From the NCBI RefSeq assembly GCF_003426775.1, contig NZ_QJUG01000004.1:1-64000 (forward strand): a DNA stretch of 64,000 nt. Direction: 5' to 3'. The DNA comes from Allorhizocola rhizosphaerae. Lineage in GTDB: Bacteria; Actinomycetota; Actinomycetes; Mycobacteriales; Micromonosporaceae. A model generated the notes under the pieces. It was given only the letters and a program-made list of their open reading frames with translations. It was not told where the DNA came from and did not search any database. Positions 16,636 to 24,546 of the stretch are shown one piece after another. Position 1 is the first letter of the stretch; every line of letters begins with the position of its first letter. The position numbers and the translations under genes were made by a program.

Positions 16636-17384
16636 CCGGGCAGCTTGAGGGTTTGGTTGCCGTCGTGACGGGCGGCGGGTCCGGCATCGGGCTCGCCGCA
16701 TGCCGCACGTTCCTGCGGGAGGGCGCACGCGTTGGCGTGCTTGACCTTTCGCCTGCCACATTGGACAGTGCAGAGGCGTTGCCCGTGACGGCCGACGTGT
16801 CGGACCAGGCGTCCATGGACGCGGCCATGGCGGCGGTGGCGCAGCGCTTCGGCGGCATCGACATTCTCGTCAACAACGCGGGCATCAGCGCGGTCGGCAC
16901 CGTCGAGGACAATTCCGACGATGAGTGGGCGCGGGTGCTCGACGTCAACGTGACGGGTGTCGTGCGCGGGACGCGGGCCGCACTGCCGTACCTTCGGCGC
17001 AGCGAGCACGCCGCGATCGTCAACACGACGTCCATCGCGGCGACGGCAGGGCTGGTGAACCGCGCGCTGTACTCGGCCTCCAAGGGAGCCGTGCACGCGC
17101 TCACCCTCGCGATGGCCGCCGATCTGGTGACCGACGGCATCCGGGTCAACTGTGTCTCGCCCGGCACGGCCGACACGCCCTGGGTGGCTCGGTTGCTCGC
17201 CCGCACCGACGACCCGGCCGAGGAGCGACGCAAGCTTGCGGCCCGCCAACCCCTGGGGCGCATGGTTTCCGCCGACGAGGTGGCCGCGGCCATGCTCTAT
17301 CTGGCGAGCCCGGCGGCGAGCGCGACGACCGGGATGTCGCTTTCGGTCGACGGCGGGGTGGGCGGCCTGCGGCTGGTGCGCTAG
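16632..17384 (+). CDS. SDR oxidoreductase, candidate 2-keto-3-deoxy-L-fuconate dehydrogenase
   Basis: A 250-residue classical SDR: cofactor loop TGGGSGIG (13-20), NNAG, catalytic Ser in NTTSIAA and YSASK. Start GTG at 16632 overlaps the stop of the FAH-like gene (GTGA), so they are coupled. In L-fucose and L-rhamnose non-phosphorylative pathways an SDR oxidises the 2-keto-3-deoxy acid just before an FAH-like hydrolase, and this pairing is the main reason for the call. SDR sequence alone would not fix the substrate. Confidence 0.78.
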   Translation: MTGQLEGLVAVVTGGGSGIGLAACRTFLREGARVGVLDLSPATLDSAEALPVTADVSDQASMDAAMAAVAQRFGGIDILVNNAGISAVGTVEDNSDDEWARVLDVNVTGVVRGTRAALPYLRRSEHAAIVNTTSIAATAGLVNRALYSASKGAVHALTLAMAADLVTDGIRVNCVSPGTADTPWVARLLARTDDPAEERRKLAARQPLGRMVSADEVAAAMLYLASPAASATTGMSLSVDGGVGGLRLVR

Positions 17385-17776
17385 TTCGGTTTGAGTTCCC
17401 AGACCATGCCCTTGTCGAGGACCCGAAGCGCGGTGGCCGGATCGGTGGTCATAAGTGGAACATCAAGCGCGTAGACGAGAAGACATGAGTGGGCGAGGCT
17501 GAGCCGGTCGACCTTCTTGGCGACCGCGCCCACCATGTCGCCATCCTGGACACGGCATTCGACGACCTCGATGGTGGGAAGCCCGAGCAGCACGTCGAGA
17601 AGGTCGGCGGCGTCCGGATCGGAGTCCCGGTAGGCCTCTGCCACGCACAGCACCGAGGTCTGCATGGTCAGGTCTTGGTCCGCGCAATAGGCGAGTTGAT
17701 AGGCGACATGCGAGTCGGTCTGTTGCGCGTAACCCAGGAGAGCGCCGGTGTCCAGCACCCTGATCGGCGTGCTCAC
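17381..17776 (-). CDS. PIN-domain ribonuclease toxin (VapC-like)
   Basis: A 131-residue PIN domain protein. The first acidic residue is in VLDTGALLGY (Asp9), further acids are in CVAEAYRDSDPD, and the C-terminal strand is VPLMTTDPATA with the conserved Asp. In VapC toxins these residues bind Mg2+ and cut RNA. The usual central acidic residue before the AHSCLLVYAL helix is not obvious, so activity is uncertain. The start is a GTG overlapping the antitoxin stop (GTGA), the standard toxin-after-antitoxin coupling. Its 3' end overlaps the convergent SDR by four bases. Confidence 0.78.
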   Translation of the reverse strand: MSTPIRVLDTGALLGYAQQTDSHVAYQLAYCADQDLTMQTSVLCVAEAYRDSDPDAADLLDVLLGLPTIEVVECRVQDGDMVGAVAKKVDRLSLAHSCLLVYALDVPLMTTDPATALRVLDKGMVWELKPN

Positions 17777-18057
17777 CTGCCAGGGCGACGCCGGGTGAGC
17801 TCACGCAGCCTGCCGTCCAAGTATTCCCGGCGAGCGGGGTCGGCCCAGCGCTTGCGCAAATCGGCGTGGGAAGCGGCGATGCGCGCATATTCCTCGGCGG
17901 GCACTTCGTGAACGTTGACCGCCGCGAGCGCGGCCGCCGTGGCGTCGATCCGCTGCCGGATGCGGACCGCGTCGGCGACGTATCGCGAGGCGTTTCCCTG
18001 CGCCTTCACGAAATCGCCAAGCTCGTCCGGCAGGCTGACGGTCAACTTCACGGTCAT
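17773..18057 (-). CDS. Ribbon-helix-helix antitoxin of the PIN toxin
   Basis: A 94-residue protein. The N-terminal strand-helix MTVKLTVSLPDELGDFVK is a typical RHH (CopG/ParD-like) DNA-binding start, followed by a helical region and a basic C-terminus (YLDGRLRELTRRRPGR) that would wrap the toxin. I chose the ATG at 18057 because it yields the canonical RHH strand. The start codon lies inside a 10-base inverted repeat, which fits autorepression by an RHH dimer pair. Confidence 0.78.
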   Translation of the reverse strand: MTVKLTVSLPDELGDFVKAQGNASRYVADAVRIRQRIDATAAALAAVNVHEVPAEEYARIAASHADLRKRWADPARREYLDGRLRELTRRRPGR

Positions 18058-18083
18058 ACCGGAAAGGCTACTACGGTATGACC
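18052..18083. promoter_or_regulatory. Inverted-repeat operator over the antitoxin start
   Basis: GGTCATACCG (18052-18061) and CGGTATGACC (18074-18083) are perfect 10-base inverted repeats separated by 12 bases. The left arm includes the antitoxin start codon. The size and position are those of an autoregulatory toxin-antitoxin operator. Confidence 0.65.
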
Positions 18084-18178
18084 ATGCGTGCAACGACGCT
18101 GTGGGATTCCTGAGATCGGTTTATCGCTCCGTGTGATGTGCCGGTGATCCGGGGCGATGCGGCGCACGCGAAGTTCGT

Positions 18179-18207
18179 TTGGCAGCGGCCCGTGCGACCG
18201 GTATCGT
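18179..18207 (+). promoter_or_regulatory. Promoter of the thrS leader
   Basis: TTGGCA (18179-18184) and TATCGT (18202-18207) are separated by 17 bases, a good sigma-70-type promoter. The expected start of transcription is about 18214, one base before the leader peptide ATG, so the leader would be translated from a leaderless RNA. Confidence 0.6.
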
Positions 18208-18214
18208 GGTCGGC

Positions 18215-18283
18215 ATGAATTCAGCTGTGGCCATCTTTACGACGACGCCGGTGCACCCCGGCGATCGCGTGTTGGCCTGCTGA
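18215..18283 (+). CDS. Threonine-rich leader peptide of thrS attenuator
   Basis: A 22-codon open frame beginning MNSAVAIF, followed by three consecutive Thr codons (ACG ACG ACG, 18239-18247) and ending RVLAC before TGA at 18281. It begins at the predicted transcription start and ends 22 bases before an intrinsic terminator in front of a threonyl-tRNA synthetase gene. By analogy with amino-acid leader peptides, ribosome stalling at the Thr codons when charged tRNA-Thr is scarce would disfavour the terminator. Too short for family recognition; the call rests on arrangement. Confidence 0.75.
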   Translation: MNSAVAIFTTTPVHPGDRVLAC

Positions 18284-18304
18284 GCCTCATCCAGACAGCC
18301 ATCA

Positions 18305-18331
18305 AGCCCCGGGGCAACGCCCGGGGCTTTT
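18305..18331 (+). terminator. Attenuator: intrinsic terminator in thrS leader
   Basis: AGCCCCGGG (18305-18313) pairs perfectly with CCCGGGGCT (18320-18328) across a GCAACG loop and is followed by TTTT (18328-18331). It lies between the Thr leader peptide and the thrS Shine-Dalgarno site. CCCCGG at 18256-18261, inside the leader frame, could pair with CCGGGG of the right arm (18321-18326) as a competing structure. Confidence 0.8.
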
Positions 18332-18368
18332 CCTGTGGCGTGCCCTGCCGTCACAGGAGGACCGACCC

Positions 18369-19550
18369 ATGCAAGACCACCGCAGGCTCGGGCGCGAACT
18401 CGAGCTGTATCACCTGGACCCGATGATCGGTGCGGGCCTGCCGATCTGGCTGCCCGCCGGTGCGGCCGTGCGGCACGCCATCGAGTCATACATCCGTGAG
18501 GTTGAACGCCTTGCCGGGTACCAACATGTATATTCACCGCCCCTGGCAAAGCGTGTGATGTACGAGCGCTCGGGGCATCTGGCCAAGTTCGCCGACGACA
18601 TGTTCGCGCCCATCGACGATGGCGGGGACGAGTTGATGCTTCGGCCGAGTCTGTGCCCGCATCACGCGATGGTGTTCGGCTCGCGCGGGCGTTCATATCG
18701 GGAGTTGCCCTTGCGCATCGCCGAACTCGGTGGCATGTATAGGGCCGAGCGCTCGGGCGTTGTCGGCGGGCTGTCGCGGGTGCGCGCGATCTGGCTCAAC
18801 GACGCGCACATCTTCTGCTCGCTCGACCAGGTGGGCGACGAGGTCGCGGCGATACTGGACATGATCCTGCGCGCGCACAAGGCGCTGGGCGTGGCCGTGG
18901 ACTCGTTTCGCCTGTCGCGCCGGGGCGAGGGCGCTGGCTACATCGGCGCGCCATCGTCGTGGGCACTCGCGGAAGACATGCTGCGCCAGGCGCTCGTTGC
19001 CGCCGGCATATCGTTTGCGGAGGCTCCGGGCGAGGCGGCGTTCTACGGCCCGAAAATCGACATCCAGATCCGGGACGTGCACGACCGCGTGTACAGCCTG
19101 TCGACCATCCAGATCGACTTCGCCCAGCCGGAGCGGTTCGGGCTGGAATACGTTGCGCCAGACGGGGATCGCCACAGCCCGGTCATGATTCACCGCAGTG
19201 TCGTGGGTGGACTGGAGCGGCTGGTCGGACATCTCATCGAGGTGCACCAGGGCGCTTTCCCGGCGTGGTATGCGCCCGTGCAGCTGGCCGTGCTCCCGGT
19301 CGGCGCGCAGCAATCCGAAGCGGCGCACCGGTTCGCCTCCGACGCCATGCGGCTGGGCCTGCGTGCGGAAGTCCGAGAGCACGAATCGCTGGGCCACCGC
19401 GTCCGCGAGGCGTCGAAGGTCCCGTTCATCGCGGTCATCGGCGAACGCGAGGCCGAGGTGGGCGCGGTGTCGTTGCGTTCTCACGCGGGCGTCCTCCCGG
19501 AGGGTGCCGCCCTGGACCTCATCGCCGCCGAATGTCGCCCACCGCTATGA
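18369..19550 (+). CDS. Threonyl-tRNA synthetase lacking TGS and editing domains
   Basis: A 393-residue class II synthetase that charges tRNA-Thr. The catalytic core keeps motif 2 (MYRAERSG), motif 3 (GGLERLVGHLIE) and the three zinc ligands of ThrRS: Cys in RPSLCPHH, His in NDAHIFC and His in MIHRSVVGG. The anticodon-binding domain follows (PVQLAVLPVGAQQSEAAHRF to the end). Full-length ThrRS is near 640 residues; the N-terminal TGS and editing regions are absent, starting directly with DHRRLGRELELYHLDP. ACAGGAGG is eight bases before the ATG. Probably a second, inducible ThrRS, either a starvation back-up or a resistant copy; the main thrS is expected elsewhere. Confidence 0.88.
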   Translation: MQDHRRLGRELELYHLDPMIGAGLPIWLPAGAAVRHAIESYIREVERLAGYQHVYSPPLAKRVMYERSGHLAKFADDMFAPIDDGGDELMLRPSLCPHHAMVFGSRGRSYRELPLRIAELGGMYRAERSGVVGGLSRVRAIWLNDAHIFCSLDQVGDEVAAILDMILRAHKALGVAVDSFRLSRRGEGAGYIGAPSSWALAEDMLRQALVAAGISFAEAPGEAAFYGPKIDIQIRDVHDRVYSLSTIQIDFAQPERFGLEYVAPDGDRHSPVMIHRSVVGGLERLVGHLIEVHQGAFPAWYAPVQLAVLPVGAQQSEAAHRFASDAMRLGLRAEVREHESLGHRVREASKVPFIAVIGEREAEVGAVSLRSHAGVLPEGAALDLIAAECRPPL

Positions 19551-21003: not shown

Positions 21004-24000
21004 CTACCGTCCGGAATGGATGATGGCACCCGCGACTTCAAGAGATTCGATGACGAGCGGATCGAGGCCGCAGTCTCGCGAAATCCGTGCACCCTTGACA
21101 TCGGGGTTGAGCGAAGTCCGGCTGGCGAAGGATCCATCGGCCAACGACCGTCGCGCCACCTCGCCGGATCTTTCTACGGAAACAAGGGTTTCGCCGTCTG
21201 GGTGCATGGCAAGGTGTGCGACCCGGGTGGCTGTGGGCACTGTCCACAGTCGCTCACCGTCCACGGAGTGGGCGGTGATCTCTTGGGAGAGCCCGACTGC
21301 CGTCAGTTGGCGTTCTGCACTGTGGGCCGCAGCCACATGTTTGCGTAAGCGGTCCGTCACCACGATGGGCACTCCGCCGACGTAAAGGTATGTTTCCTCT
21401 ACATCGTCCGAGGATGCGATGACCACCCCGCCAATGTGCCAGAAAAGAGTTGATCGACGCTCGTCGATCGGCAGTGGGCCGTGTTTCATCCAGTCGCTGG
21501 CCGTCTCGTCGCGTGTGTAAAGGACGGCGGCGGACGCGTCGAGGCAATAGACGCCCGAGGAAGTTCTGCCAACGTCGAGACGATCTTCGGTCGGTCGCGG
21601 CAGCGTAGTGATCAAACTGAGCGTCCGCAGGTCGAAAATGGACATTGGCTCACTGTGGCTTCCCATACAGAGGATTGCCGGCTTGCCCGCCCATTGGATG
21701 AGCATGGCCCGTGATCCCGAGCTGATCTCGGCTGTGCTGGCGTTTTCGATGTTCAGTATCGAAGTCCCGCCGGAACCGGTCACAAGTATCCGTTCTCGAT
21801 CGAGGATATGCATAGAGCGGAACCTTTGGAGCGGCGGGATAGGTATGTCCACGGGGGCATCGGTCCTGAAGTGCCCCTCCGGCCAGACCTTCATGCTGTG
21901 TGAAGTGAGCACGGCGATGTCGCCGGTCGGGAGGCAGGCGAGATCTTCGATAGGCATGTCGAAGCCACCCAATGGCCCAATTCCGGAGAGCATCGCTCCC
22001 GTCATGTCCGTGTCTCGGCAGCTGCGACCCACAAAGGACACTCCCCGCAGGTCAGCTCGCGCCAACTTCGCGCCATCCAATATGGATGAGACGATTGGGT
22101 GAGGTTTGTTCAGGCCGGAGAGATCACAGTCGCTGAGGTCGACGCCGCGCAGGGTGAGATTGCTCAAGCCGATCAGCGTGACCGCGTTGCCGCCCAGCCG
22201 CCCGGACGTGCCCGGCTCGGTGTGACGGCTCATCCGTGCTATCTCGGCCAGCCGGTCGCCACGATCGGCGCACGAGGCCATCATGTCTCGGACGAATTCC
22301 AGAATGACCGGAGAGGTCGTTTCGGAGCCGAACGTCGGGATCAGGACTTCTGCCTTCTCGGGGGCAAAACGACCCAACGCCGGGAGGCGGCCCGACTCGT
22401 CGCGCTCCTGCAGGAAGTACTCCGACCAGCGATAGTCGCCGACCGGCTCGTCATCGTGCTCCGAGCGCATGAGTTGCAGGAACTCCCCGTCCAGCACGCC
22501 GAGCTGGGCCGCGATTTTGTACGCGGCGAAGAACTCGATCAATGACTTGTGCGCGGGGGTGTAATCCCCGAAGTTGTTGCGCACCAGGATCGTCTGTGCC
22601 CGCATGTCGTGCTGCCAGTGGTCAAGGTCCCGCTCGGTTTGGACCGCAGGTCCGAAGCAGGCGCGCACCCGATCCGGGAAGTCCCGGTAGTTCATGCTCA
22701 GGGTGTCGGTGGCGAGCATCTCCCACGAGACCTCGCACAGGAAGTAAACCTTGTCCGCCATCGAGGTGAAGGTCCGTCCCGTGCCGATGTCGCGGCCCAT
22801 CTTCGTGCGCACCGCGTAGAGGTACACATGCGTCATATCGACGTCGGCGTCGTTGCCTATGTCCGGCAGCGCCTCCAGCACGAGCTCGGACATCACGGGC
22901 CTGCGCATCAGATCGCGGATCGCGGGGTTCGTCATGACCCGCTCCACCGTGGCGGCATCGGTCAGCCGATGCTGCAGCACCGACCGGATCTGTTCGTCGT
23001 CGAAGGGCTCCACCTCAACGATTTCGAACTGCGGCGTCCGGTCCGCGAGCCGCTCCATCGACGCCTGCACCCGCGCGCCGAGGAGGTCACGCCCGGCATC
23101 CGCGTTGGGAAAATGCTCGGTGCGGCAACTGAGCAGCACCTTTGAGCCGGGCTCGATGACCGATGCCAGCTCCCAGAAGTTGTCGGCCATCGCCTGCCGA
23201 TCGATCCTCGCCGCCATCTCGTCGAACCCGTCGAAGATAATCATCAGTTTGCCGCTGCGATTCAGCTGTTGGAACGCCTCGTACCGGGAAAAGATGTTAT
23301 GACGGCGGAACAGAAACTGGGACAGCAGCGCGTCCAGCGTGGTGGCCTTGGCGTAGTCGCGCAGCGGGATGACCAGGGGTAGCCGGGGACGCGGCCGGCC
23401 CTCCTCCCTCGCCTTGCGCCAGAGCCGGGCCTGCTCCCACGCGAAGCGGAGCGAGAACCACGTCTTGCCGGTGCCGAACTCGCCCAGCAGCGAGAGATGC
23501 TCCTTCGACGGGTCGTCCAGCCACGAGCGCACGTATTGCGTCAACCCGCCATCGCGCGCGGGATACCAACTGATGGCCATGACACTGCCGCTGATCGGAT
23601 CGACCTCGTCCTTGTGGCATGACAGCTCCACATAGTGTTTGTCGATTTCCTGCCGTGCGACCTCGGCGTCGAGCCAGTCGAGGTATCCGTCGAAGTCGAC
23701 CGCGAGATCGATCAGGGTGTCGAAGGTGAAGGCGTAGAGGCGGTTCCCGCTTTCTTCGGCGGCCGTCCGCGCCGCCGGGCTGATCCGCGACGGCGAGACT
23801 GCCCAACCCTCGTCTGCTTCGTGGGTGTCCGTCAATTCCCCAAGGCGGGATAGGTCCACCGCGTTGAGATCGCCGTCCACCCCATACACCACGACGGTGA
23901 TCCGGTGGTGCAGCGACGGGACCGTCACCAGCCAGCCGAACGCATCCGGATCGGTGACCTCAAGAGTGCGGACGATGCTGTAGTCGACCGCCTTGAACCA

Positions 24001-24546
24001 CTCCCGCATGTCCTGCGCGAGCCTGTCCAGTGGGCTGCCGAGGTGCTCGGGCTGAGGATCGACCCGCTGATGGCCTTTCTCGATGGCGTATTGGATCGCC
24101 TCCAACCGGTGCCCTATATTGACTTCCACTGCGGTACGGCTGCGGGCGACCATCTCCTCGAAGACTTCGATGAACCGGTCCATCTCGCGCGGCAGGTTGT
24201 AGTCGGGTCGGCCGAACTCTCCGGTCTCCTCGCCGCGCGCCCAAACTTCGGCGGCCGCGGTGCGCAGGTGTTGCCAGTCGCCCGCGCCATACGACTTGAT
24301 GAAGGCATCCTTGATGATCGAGTCGCCGAAGTAGGCGATCGCCTCCCTGGGCATTCCATAGCAGAAGTCAACCAGGGCGTAGGCGTAGAGGTGCACGACG
24401 TCCTGCGGCAGCACGAGCGGATCGAAGCCGAGCTTCTTGCGCAGCCTGATCACCGCCTCGCTGTGCTGTGCCCGGTCGACAATCGGCTGCGCCGCCAGTT
24501 TCATCAGCAGGCCAAGCGCCGTACCAAGCAATTCCACAGCCGACAT
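21004..24546 (-). CDS. NACHT-domain STAND NTPase with pentapeptide and beta-propeller C-terminus
   Basis: An 1180-residue NLR-like protein. The N-terminal 300 residues hold helices and a segment (about 205-290) that resembles a degenerate restriction-endonuclease-like fold without a clear catalytic Lys. The NACHT module (about 335-690) has Walker A GEFGTGKT (355-362), Walker B LMIIFDGFDEM (434-444) and a sensor-like LLSCRTEHF. SLIEFFAAYKIAA closes the winged region. Residues about 790-855 are pentapeptide repeats (LSNLTLRGVDLSDCDLSGL) and the last 310 look like WD40-type propeller blades. Bacterial NACHT proteins of this sort act in phage defence or signalling. The ATG at 24546 has GGAGGA almost touching it. 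Confidence 0.85.
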   Translation of the reverse strand: MSAVELLGTALGLLMKLAAQPIVDRAQHSEAVIRLRKKLGFDPLVLPQDVVHLYAYALVDFCYGMPREAIAYFGDSIIKDAFIKSYGAGDWQHLRTAAAEVWARGEETGEFGRPDYNLPREMDRFIEVFEEMVARSRTAVEVNIGHRLEAIQYAIEKGHQRVDPQPEHLGSPLDRLAQDMREWFKAVDYSIVRTLEVTDPDAFGWLVTVPSLHHRITVVVYGVDGDLNAVDLSRLGELTDTHEADEGWAVSPSRISPAARTAAEESGNRLYAFTFDTLIDLAVDFDGYLDWLDAEVARQEIDKHYVELSCHKDEVDPISGSVMAISWYPARDGGLTQYVRSWLDDPSKEHLSLLGEFGTGKTWFSLRFAWEQARLWRKAREEGRPRPRLPLVIPLRDYAKATTLDALLSQFLFRRHNIFSRYEAFQQLNRSGKLMIIFDGFDEMAARIDRQAMADNFWELASVIEPGSKVLLSCRTEHFPNADAGRDLLGARVQASMERLADRTPQFEIVEVEPFDDEQIRSVLQHRLTDAATVERVMTNPAIRDLMRRPVMSELVLEALPDIGNDADVDMTHVYLYAVRTKMGRDIGTGRTFTSMADKVYFLCEVSWEMLATDTLSMNYRDFPDRVRACFGPAVQTERDLDHWQHDMRAQTILVRNNFGDYTPAHKSLIEFFAAYKIAAQLGVLDGEFLQLMRSEHDDEPVGDYRWSEYFLQERDESGRLPALGRFAPEKAEVLIPTFGSETTSPVILEFVRDMMASCADRGDRLAEIARMSRHTEPGTSGRLGGNAVTLIGLSNLTLRGVDLSDCDLSGLNKPHPIVSSILDGAKLARADLRGVSFVGRSCRDTDMTGAMLSGIGPLGGFDMPIEDLACLPTGDIAVLTSHSMKVWPEGHFRTDAPVDIPIPPLQRFRSMHILDRERILVTGSGGTSILNIENASTAEISSGSRAMLIQWAGKPAILCMGSHSEPMSIFDLRTLSLITTLPRPTEDRLDVGRTSSGVYCLDASAAVLYTRDETASDWMKHGPLPIDERRSTLFWHIGGVVIASSDDVEETYLYVGGVPIVVTDRLRKHVAAAHSAERQLTAVGLSQEITAHSVDGERLWTVPTATRVAHLAMHPDGETLVSVERSGEVARRSLADGSFASRTSLNPDVKGARISRDCGLDPLVIESLEVAGAIIHSGR

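Follow-up and report, generated by a model that had tools for sequence, protein, structure and literature searches.

The window analyzed here is a stretch of 64,000 nucleotides of Allorhizocola rhizosphaerae (contig NZ_QJUG01000004.1, positions 1 to 64,000 of the forward strand), and the locus of interest consists of a short regulatory region followed, on the plus strand, by an auxiliary threonyl-tRNA synthetase (ThrRS) gene at 18369-19550. A pair of overlapping small genes (17381-18093, minus strand; 131 and 106 amino acids), divergent from the leader promoter, precedes this region; their arrangement and lengths point to a possible toxin-antitoxin pair, and neither gene matched a Pfam family or an NCBIfam family at its cut-off. 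On the other side, the minus strand (21004-24546) encodes a 1180-amino acid NACHT NTPase that carries NNH5 and NA-iREase1 domains at its N terminus and a pentapeptide/WD40-like part at its C terminus, a protein type that is met in bacterial conflict or defense systems.

The regulatory region, all elements of which are on the plus strand, starts with a sigma-70-type promoter (18179-18207) that is composed of the -35 element TTGGCA (18179-18184), a 17-nt spacer and the -10 element TATCGT (18202-18207), and ends 7 nt before the leader ATG at 18215. This promoter, proposed in an initial annotation of the locus, is read directly from the sequence and is the only site found by a promoter scan of positions 17900-18600, where shuffling yields an expectation of 0.3 sites. 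The leader peptide frame MNSAVAIFTTTPVHPGDRVLAC* (18215-18283) comprises 22 codons and a TGA stop (18281-18283) and contains the putative regulatory run of Thr codons, ACG ACG ACG, at 18239-18247, as annotated initially. The last part of the third Thr codon together with the following Pro codon forms region 1 (CGCCGG, 18246-18251), the predicted partner of region 2 in the absence of a stalled ribosome. Region 2 (CCCCGGCG, 18256-18263), which contains CCGGCG, lies a few bases downstream and can pair with region 1 through 18258-18263 or, as an antiterminator, with region 3 through 18256-18261. Region 3 (18304-18314) is likewise shared: 18304-18313 is the left arm of a terminator-like hairpin, and 18309-18314 is the partner of region 2. 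The competing arm that had been predicted at 18256-18261 (CCCCGG) is indeed complementary to 18309-18314 (CCGGGG) within the terminator, and this competing hairpin is conserved.

The terminator-like hairpin (3:4; 18304-18331) has 9-10 bp and a 6-nt loop, AAGCCCCGGG-GCAACG-CCCGGGGCTT at 18304-18329, with a T run at 18328-18331. It had been described as an intrinsic terminator that starts 22 bases past the leader stop. The 9-10-bp stem, the TTTT and the location ahead of the synthetase ribosome site hold, whereas the actual distance is 20 nt, and a terminator scan made no call at 18304-18331 because the U tract there, just 4 T, is below its threshold. The Shine-Dalgarno sequence of the synthetase gene, AGGAGG (18355-18360), is not covered by hairpins.

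The product of the downstream gene is a true threonine--tRNA ligase, as recognized initially, with a score of 416.8 bits against TIGR00418 (cut-off 383.65) and with the zinc ligands Cys334, His385 and His511 (E. coli numbering) present and invariant. What that annotation missed is that the enzyme is auxiliary and lacks editing: a domain search of the 393-amino acid protein detected the class II catalytic core and the anticodon-binding domain only, the N-terminal TGS and editing domains of full-length bacterial ThrRS being absent. The closest solved structure by sequence is that of Staphylococcus aureus ThrRS (1nyq). The same genome encodes a second, full-length ThrRS (a 665-amino acid frame, 42% identical over the core), so the gene in the window is auxiliary. 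In a phylogenetic tree, the auxiliary proteins form one group separate from canonical actinobacterial ThrRS, with support of 100/100. The auxiliary genes are present in 262 of the 355 genomes of the family to which the window belongs, in 63 of 111 genomes in the family of G377, to which Streptomyces also belongs, and in about a dozen of the 397 genomes in a phylum-wide sample. At residue 98, 37 of 39 auxiliary enzymes have His, as does S. aureus ThrRS, in contrast to the Met or Phe of canonical actinobacterial ThrRS, a hint that the auxiliary ThrRS may have originated outside actinobacteria. At the Leu489 site, 30 of the 39 auxiliary enzymes carry Gln and 10 of 12 canonical enzymes carry Leu; His309 and Gly463 are unchanged in the auxiliary enzymes. 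Mutations at Leu489 confer borrelidin resistance in E. coli (PMC4389257), and the state of this site suggests that the spare enzyme might serve when the main ThrRS is inhibited.

The wide spread of the element had also escaped the initial annotation. A covariance model (R1), built from 30 sequences with that of the window among them, produced a single strong match in the 8.8-Mb genome, the element in the window itself (E 6e-13), the next match having an E-value of 0.03. In the phylum sample, each of the nine best model matches lies upstream of a short ThrRS. The attenuator is located directly before the auxiliary ThrRS gene, on the same strand and 36-202 nt from the matched start, in all 78 genomes compared, which span Micromonosporaceae, Streptomycetaceae and other actinobacteria; at the 12 canonical thrS loci examined, the motif was not detected. 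Weak matches to the model (E above about 1e-6) are mostly due to chance; the one in G391, for instance, has no ThrRS nearby. Named genomes provided 55 homologous loci. In 51 of them, the gene is preceded by a leader in which Pro comes after a run of Thr; the four that have no leader (two gammaproteobacterial metagenome-assembled genomes, an Olsenella and a Saccharibacteria) are all distant, at 38-40% identity. All 71 further upstream regions, taken from whole genomes, also contain a leader, with two or more Thr codons in succession. Altogether, the layout is conserved and the run is found in 115 of 115 distinct leaders, with exactly three Thr in 111 of these, and is followed by Pro in 110, Gly in four and Ala in one. 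Thus, the leader frame and the Thr codons are maintained in related genomes, where an alignment had been suggested as a check. A promoter-like TANNNT hexamer begins 12-14 nt upstream of the start codon in 108 of the 115 relatives, indicating that the leaderless arrangement proposed initially is conserved.

Where the synthetase gene is decaying, the leader either remains or decays alongside. Model-positive genomes that lack an intact protein include three with a frameshifted ThrRS (G149, G288 and G141). In G284, a leader with TTTS (L157) precedes a 58-amino acid ThrRS remnant; in G187, there is an orphan leader (L156) with no ThrRS gene; and in G740 (L137/L162), the auxiliary ThrRS gene has an in-frame TGA and the leader has TTTA, so that leader and gene are probably decaying together.

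The arms fit the classic 1:2 / 2:3 / 3:4 scheme of mutually exclusive pairings and are conserved as such. When pairs were counted over 30 diverse sequences, the share of paired cells was 96.3% for 1:2 together with 3:4 and reached 100% for 2:3, in each case more than in shuffled and slid controls. The outer pair of 2:3 occurs as U-A in 15 and as C-G in 14 of these 30 sequences, a change that largely reflects a single clade split, so that covariation counts overstate independence. Rewired lineages are better evidence of pairing than the 2:3 covariation. L103 has CGACGGGT and ACCCGTCG as regions 1 and 2, with region 3 providing CGGGT as the partner of ACCCG and with TTTG in the peptide; L132 has TTTTG and L106 five Thr, and in L132, L106 and L167, other bases serve the same logic. 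The rewired lineages retain the Thr run and have lost Pro.

To locate the ribosome positions compatible with antitermination, we folded the RNA with region 3 already emerged and region 4 not yet, masking a ribosome footprint codon by codon. Over the 115 sequences, the mean probability of 2:3 pairing is 0.98 with the ribosomal A site at the codon before the run (-1), 0.97 at Thr1, 0.94 at Thr2 and 0.75 at Thr3, drops to 0.21 at the next codon and is about 0 from the sixth codon until near the stop; it is 0.10 when no ribosome is present and 0.17 when the ribosome has reached the stop, and codons -6 to -2 yield intermediate values of 0.34-0.68. For the leader in the window, the respective values are 1.0, 1.0, 1.0 and 0.93 at -1 to Thr3, followed by 0.11. 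In a longer RNA from the window, stalling also tips the balance from the terminator to the antiterminator, and 1:2 plus the terminator are favored in the replete state. Equilibrium folding of the complete RNA to the end of the hairpin was uninformative as a test of the switch, the terminator being favored at every ribosome position; hence the switch has to operate kinetically, during transcription, like known attenuators.

Taken together, these results bear out the initial reading of the region as an attenuator: the comparative tests are favorable, and the folding under the ribosome mask places the window of antitermination on the Thr codons. We conclude that the region is, with high probability, a ribosome-mediated transcription attenuator that responds to the level of charged tRNA-Thr and governs the auxiliary ThrRS, an interpretation well ahead of all others. 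The leader, its codons, the alternative pairings, the linkage and the codon split described below rest on sequence, and we infer the start site, termination, stalling, induction and the trigger. Under the proposed mechanism, the transcript would begin with, or right beside, the A of the leader start codon, and RNA polymerase would be trailed by the first ribosome. With plentiful Thr-tRNA, such that the ribosome reaches the stop, or with no translation, region 2 would be masked or paired to region 1, the 3:4 hairpin would form, and transcription would end. When Thr-tRNA that reads ACG is scarce, a ribosome stalled on the ACG run would cover region 1, allowing regions 2 and 3 to pair; the terminator would not form, and the spare synthetase would be made. 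The natural trigger is likely to be either inhibition of the housekeeping ThrRS, as by borrelidin-type antibiotics, or Thr starvation.

The step at which the hairpin acts admits a variant. The leader and the alternative pairing could be the same, with the 3:4 hairpin working together with Rho, or setting RNA stability or pausing, rather than terminating transcription intrinsically. The U tract is weak, with 4 T in the window and often only 2-3 of 8 positions in the relatives, most of which are thus poor in this respect, and termination at the related thrL leader of Streptomyces lividans was described as unclear by the authors (PMC8079986). However, the hairpin itself is strong, conserved and located soon after the leader stop, and we consider the variant unlikely, albeit with some weight. 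A translational block is unlikely given that the hairpin leaves the ribosome site of the synthetase gene uncovered.

The part of these results that is new, and that specialists might find surprising, is a codon split between the sensor and the effector. In the leaders, Thr2 is ACG in 115 of 115 cases, Thr1 is ACG in 104 and ACC in 11, and Thr3 is ACG in 112 of 113. By contrast, the Thr codons of 107 auxiliary synthetase genes are 707 ACC, 13 ACT, 10 ACG and 3 ACA. Thus, the synthetase gene itself is almost purged of ACG and of Thr as well, a feature that had not been recognized initially. The mean number of Thr per gene is 6.9 in the auxiliary genes compared to about 17 in the canonical cores, a drop of approximately 2.4-fold, and the protein encoded in the window has a single Thr among 393 residues compared to 16 in the core of its canonical paralog. 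A first amino acid comparison, with canonical ThrRS mostly from other families, was confounded, Lys and Asn dropping too, and was replaced by a comparison of amino acids and codons with the canonical ThrRS of matched genomes. The matched canonical cores have 14-21 Thr each, with 152 ACC to 48 ACG, and the difference in ACC and ACG usage from the auxiliary genes yields a Fisher p of 1e-24 when relatedness is ignored. The split is seen in every auxiliary lineage: 145 ACC and no ACG in 41 genes of Micromonosporaceae, 284 and 1 in Streptomycetaceae, 132 and 3 in the Promicromonosporaceae group, 89 and 5 in the Nocardioides group, and 58 and 1 in the distant group, that is, an ACG share of 0-5% against 22-28% in canonical thrS.

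The genome contains one tRNA-Thr gene each with the anticodons CGU, UGU and GGU, as far as found; ACG is read by CGU and possibly by UGU, and ACC by GGU. The simplest reading of the split is that the ACG-reading tRNA would lose its charge first, hence the use of ACG in the sensor and its avoidance in the effector (cf. PMC1183508). The synthetase gene, being almost free of Thr and ACG, would remain translatable during the very shortage that induces it. The more specific proposition, that with opposite synonymous codons the leader detects the loss of charged CGU/UGU isoacceptors while the product can still be made from GGU, is one on which we are evenly divided; if true, the circuit would provide a natural example of selective charging, incorporated in a gene that is proof against stress. 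More radically, the threat may be an attack on the ACG-reading tRNA itself. Alternatively, the split might have no regulatory meaning, the leader ACG being forced by the pairing and the ACC of the gene reflecting ordinary codon optimization. Thr3 does overlap region 1, and ACC is the more common Thr codon in nine genes of the window (116 ACC, 85 ACG). Nevertheless, Thr2 lies outside the core hairpin and is ACG throughout, including the rewired leaders; in the Pro, Ala, Ser, Val and Arg boxes of the auxiliary genes, G-ending codons have not become rarer in any comparable and consistent way, unlike ACG, which is depleted relative to the canonical genes; and the use of Thr itself has dropped. Such an explanation is therefore improbable, although it retains some weight.

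Two other readings dispense with codon sensing. In the first, the peptide is sensed rather than the codons: a TTTP nascent chain would stall the ribosome, in the manner of a drug sensor or arrest peptide, and this stall would be what the switch reads. The nearly universal Pro after the Thr run would fit such a mechanism, but the Pro codon, CCG, belongs to region 1, so that RNA pairing accounts for its conservation. Moreover, the lineages with other arms have Gly or Ala after the run (TTTG, TTTTG, TTTTTG, TTTA), with the Thr run kept, the remainder of the peptide varies, and the second Thr codon is always ACG, with no synonym, making peptide sensing very unlikely. In the second, the leader would be a T-box or another ligand-binding RNA instead of being translated: although T-boxes govern auxiliary ThrRS genes elsewhere in bacteria, as in the case of Bacillus subtilis thrZ, the region measures about 115 nt and its reading frame is conserved, and an Rfam scan of the window that included the T-box found no family at the gathering threshold, with permissive matches at chance level, so that this reading has next to no chance of being correct.

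With ribosome-mediated attenuation as the preferred reading, thrL, hitherto an entry in a table for a single organism, becomes part of a regulatory family that is conserved in actinobacteria and whose mechanism can be tested. Because the codon used for sensing and those used in the induced gene belong to different isoacceptors, selective tRNA charging becomes directly testable. Furthermore, hundreds of actinomycetes are marked as carrying a spare, probably inducible ThrRS, which is relevant to self-protection against antibiotics that target ThrRS.

The attenuator reading is supported, partly known already and very likely correct. In Streptomyces lividans TK24, a leader, thrL (SLIV_19412; MKRVRPFLETTPGFVPAR), reported in 2021 to be leaderless by RNA-seq, precedes thrS (SLIV_19410), which is presumably a short ThrRS (PMC8079986); this report had been overlooked in the initial annotation. 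The thrL peptide visibly forms one family with the MKR...TTP..VPAR leaders identified here for the Streptomyces family, but has only two Thr compared to the three of the leader in the window. The report amounts to one table row, in which the alternative pairing, the family, the auxiliary status of the enzyme and the codon split are not described (PMC8079986), and in the open-licence literature, we found no description of the leader family, the pairing scheme or the codon split. The metL leader of S. lividans in the same report (PMC8079986) contains ATTTPGAR, resembling the TTTP motif of the thrS leaders.

Leader peptides with an antiterminator and a terminator have been predicted before trpS and leuS of Streptomyces (Seliverstov 2005, PMC1262725), a study that reports no thrS element, whereas the element described here precedes a ThrRS gene. 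Other second ThrRS differ in control or in the site of change: the T2 ThrRS of Anabaena, which acts under stress, is controlled by zinc through Zur (PMC4787780), and ObaO, a second ThrRS for self-resistance, carries G463S (PMC11252418), whereas the auxiliary ThrRS analyzed here keeps Gly463 and is changed at the Leu489 site. The theory of selective charging holds that control codons are those of the isoacceptor most sensitive to shortage (PMC1183508); the E. coli thr leader uses ACC, whereas the leader in the window uses ACG, with ACC in the controlled gene. The functional precedent is the attenuator of the auxiliary TrpRS1 of Streptomyces coelicolor (Vecchione and Sello 2010, as presented in PMC4787780). 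The two systems would share ribosome-mediated transcription attenuation of an auxiliary actinomycete synthetase, which for TrpRS1 is antibiotic-resistant, and differ in that TrpRS1 involves Trp and indolmycin, whereas the enzyme in the window is specific for Thr and a possible resistance is only hinted at by the sequence.
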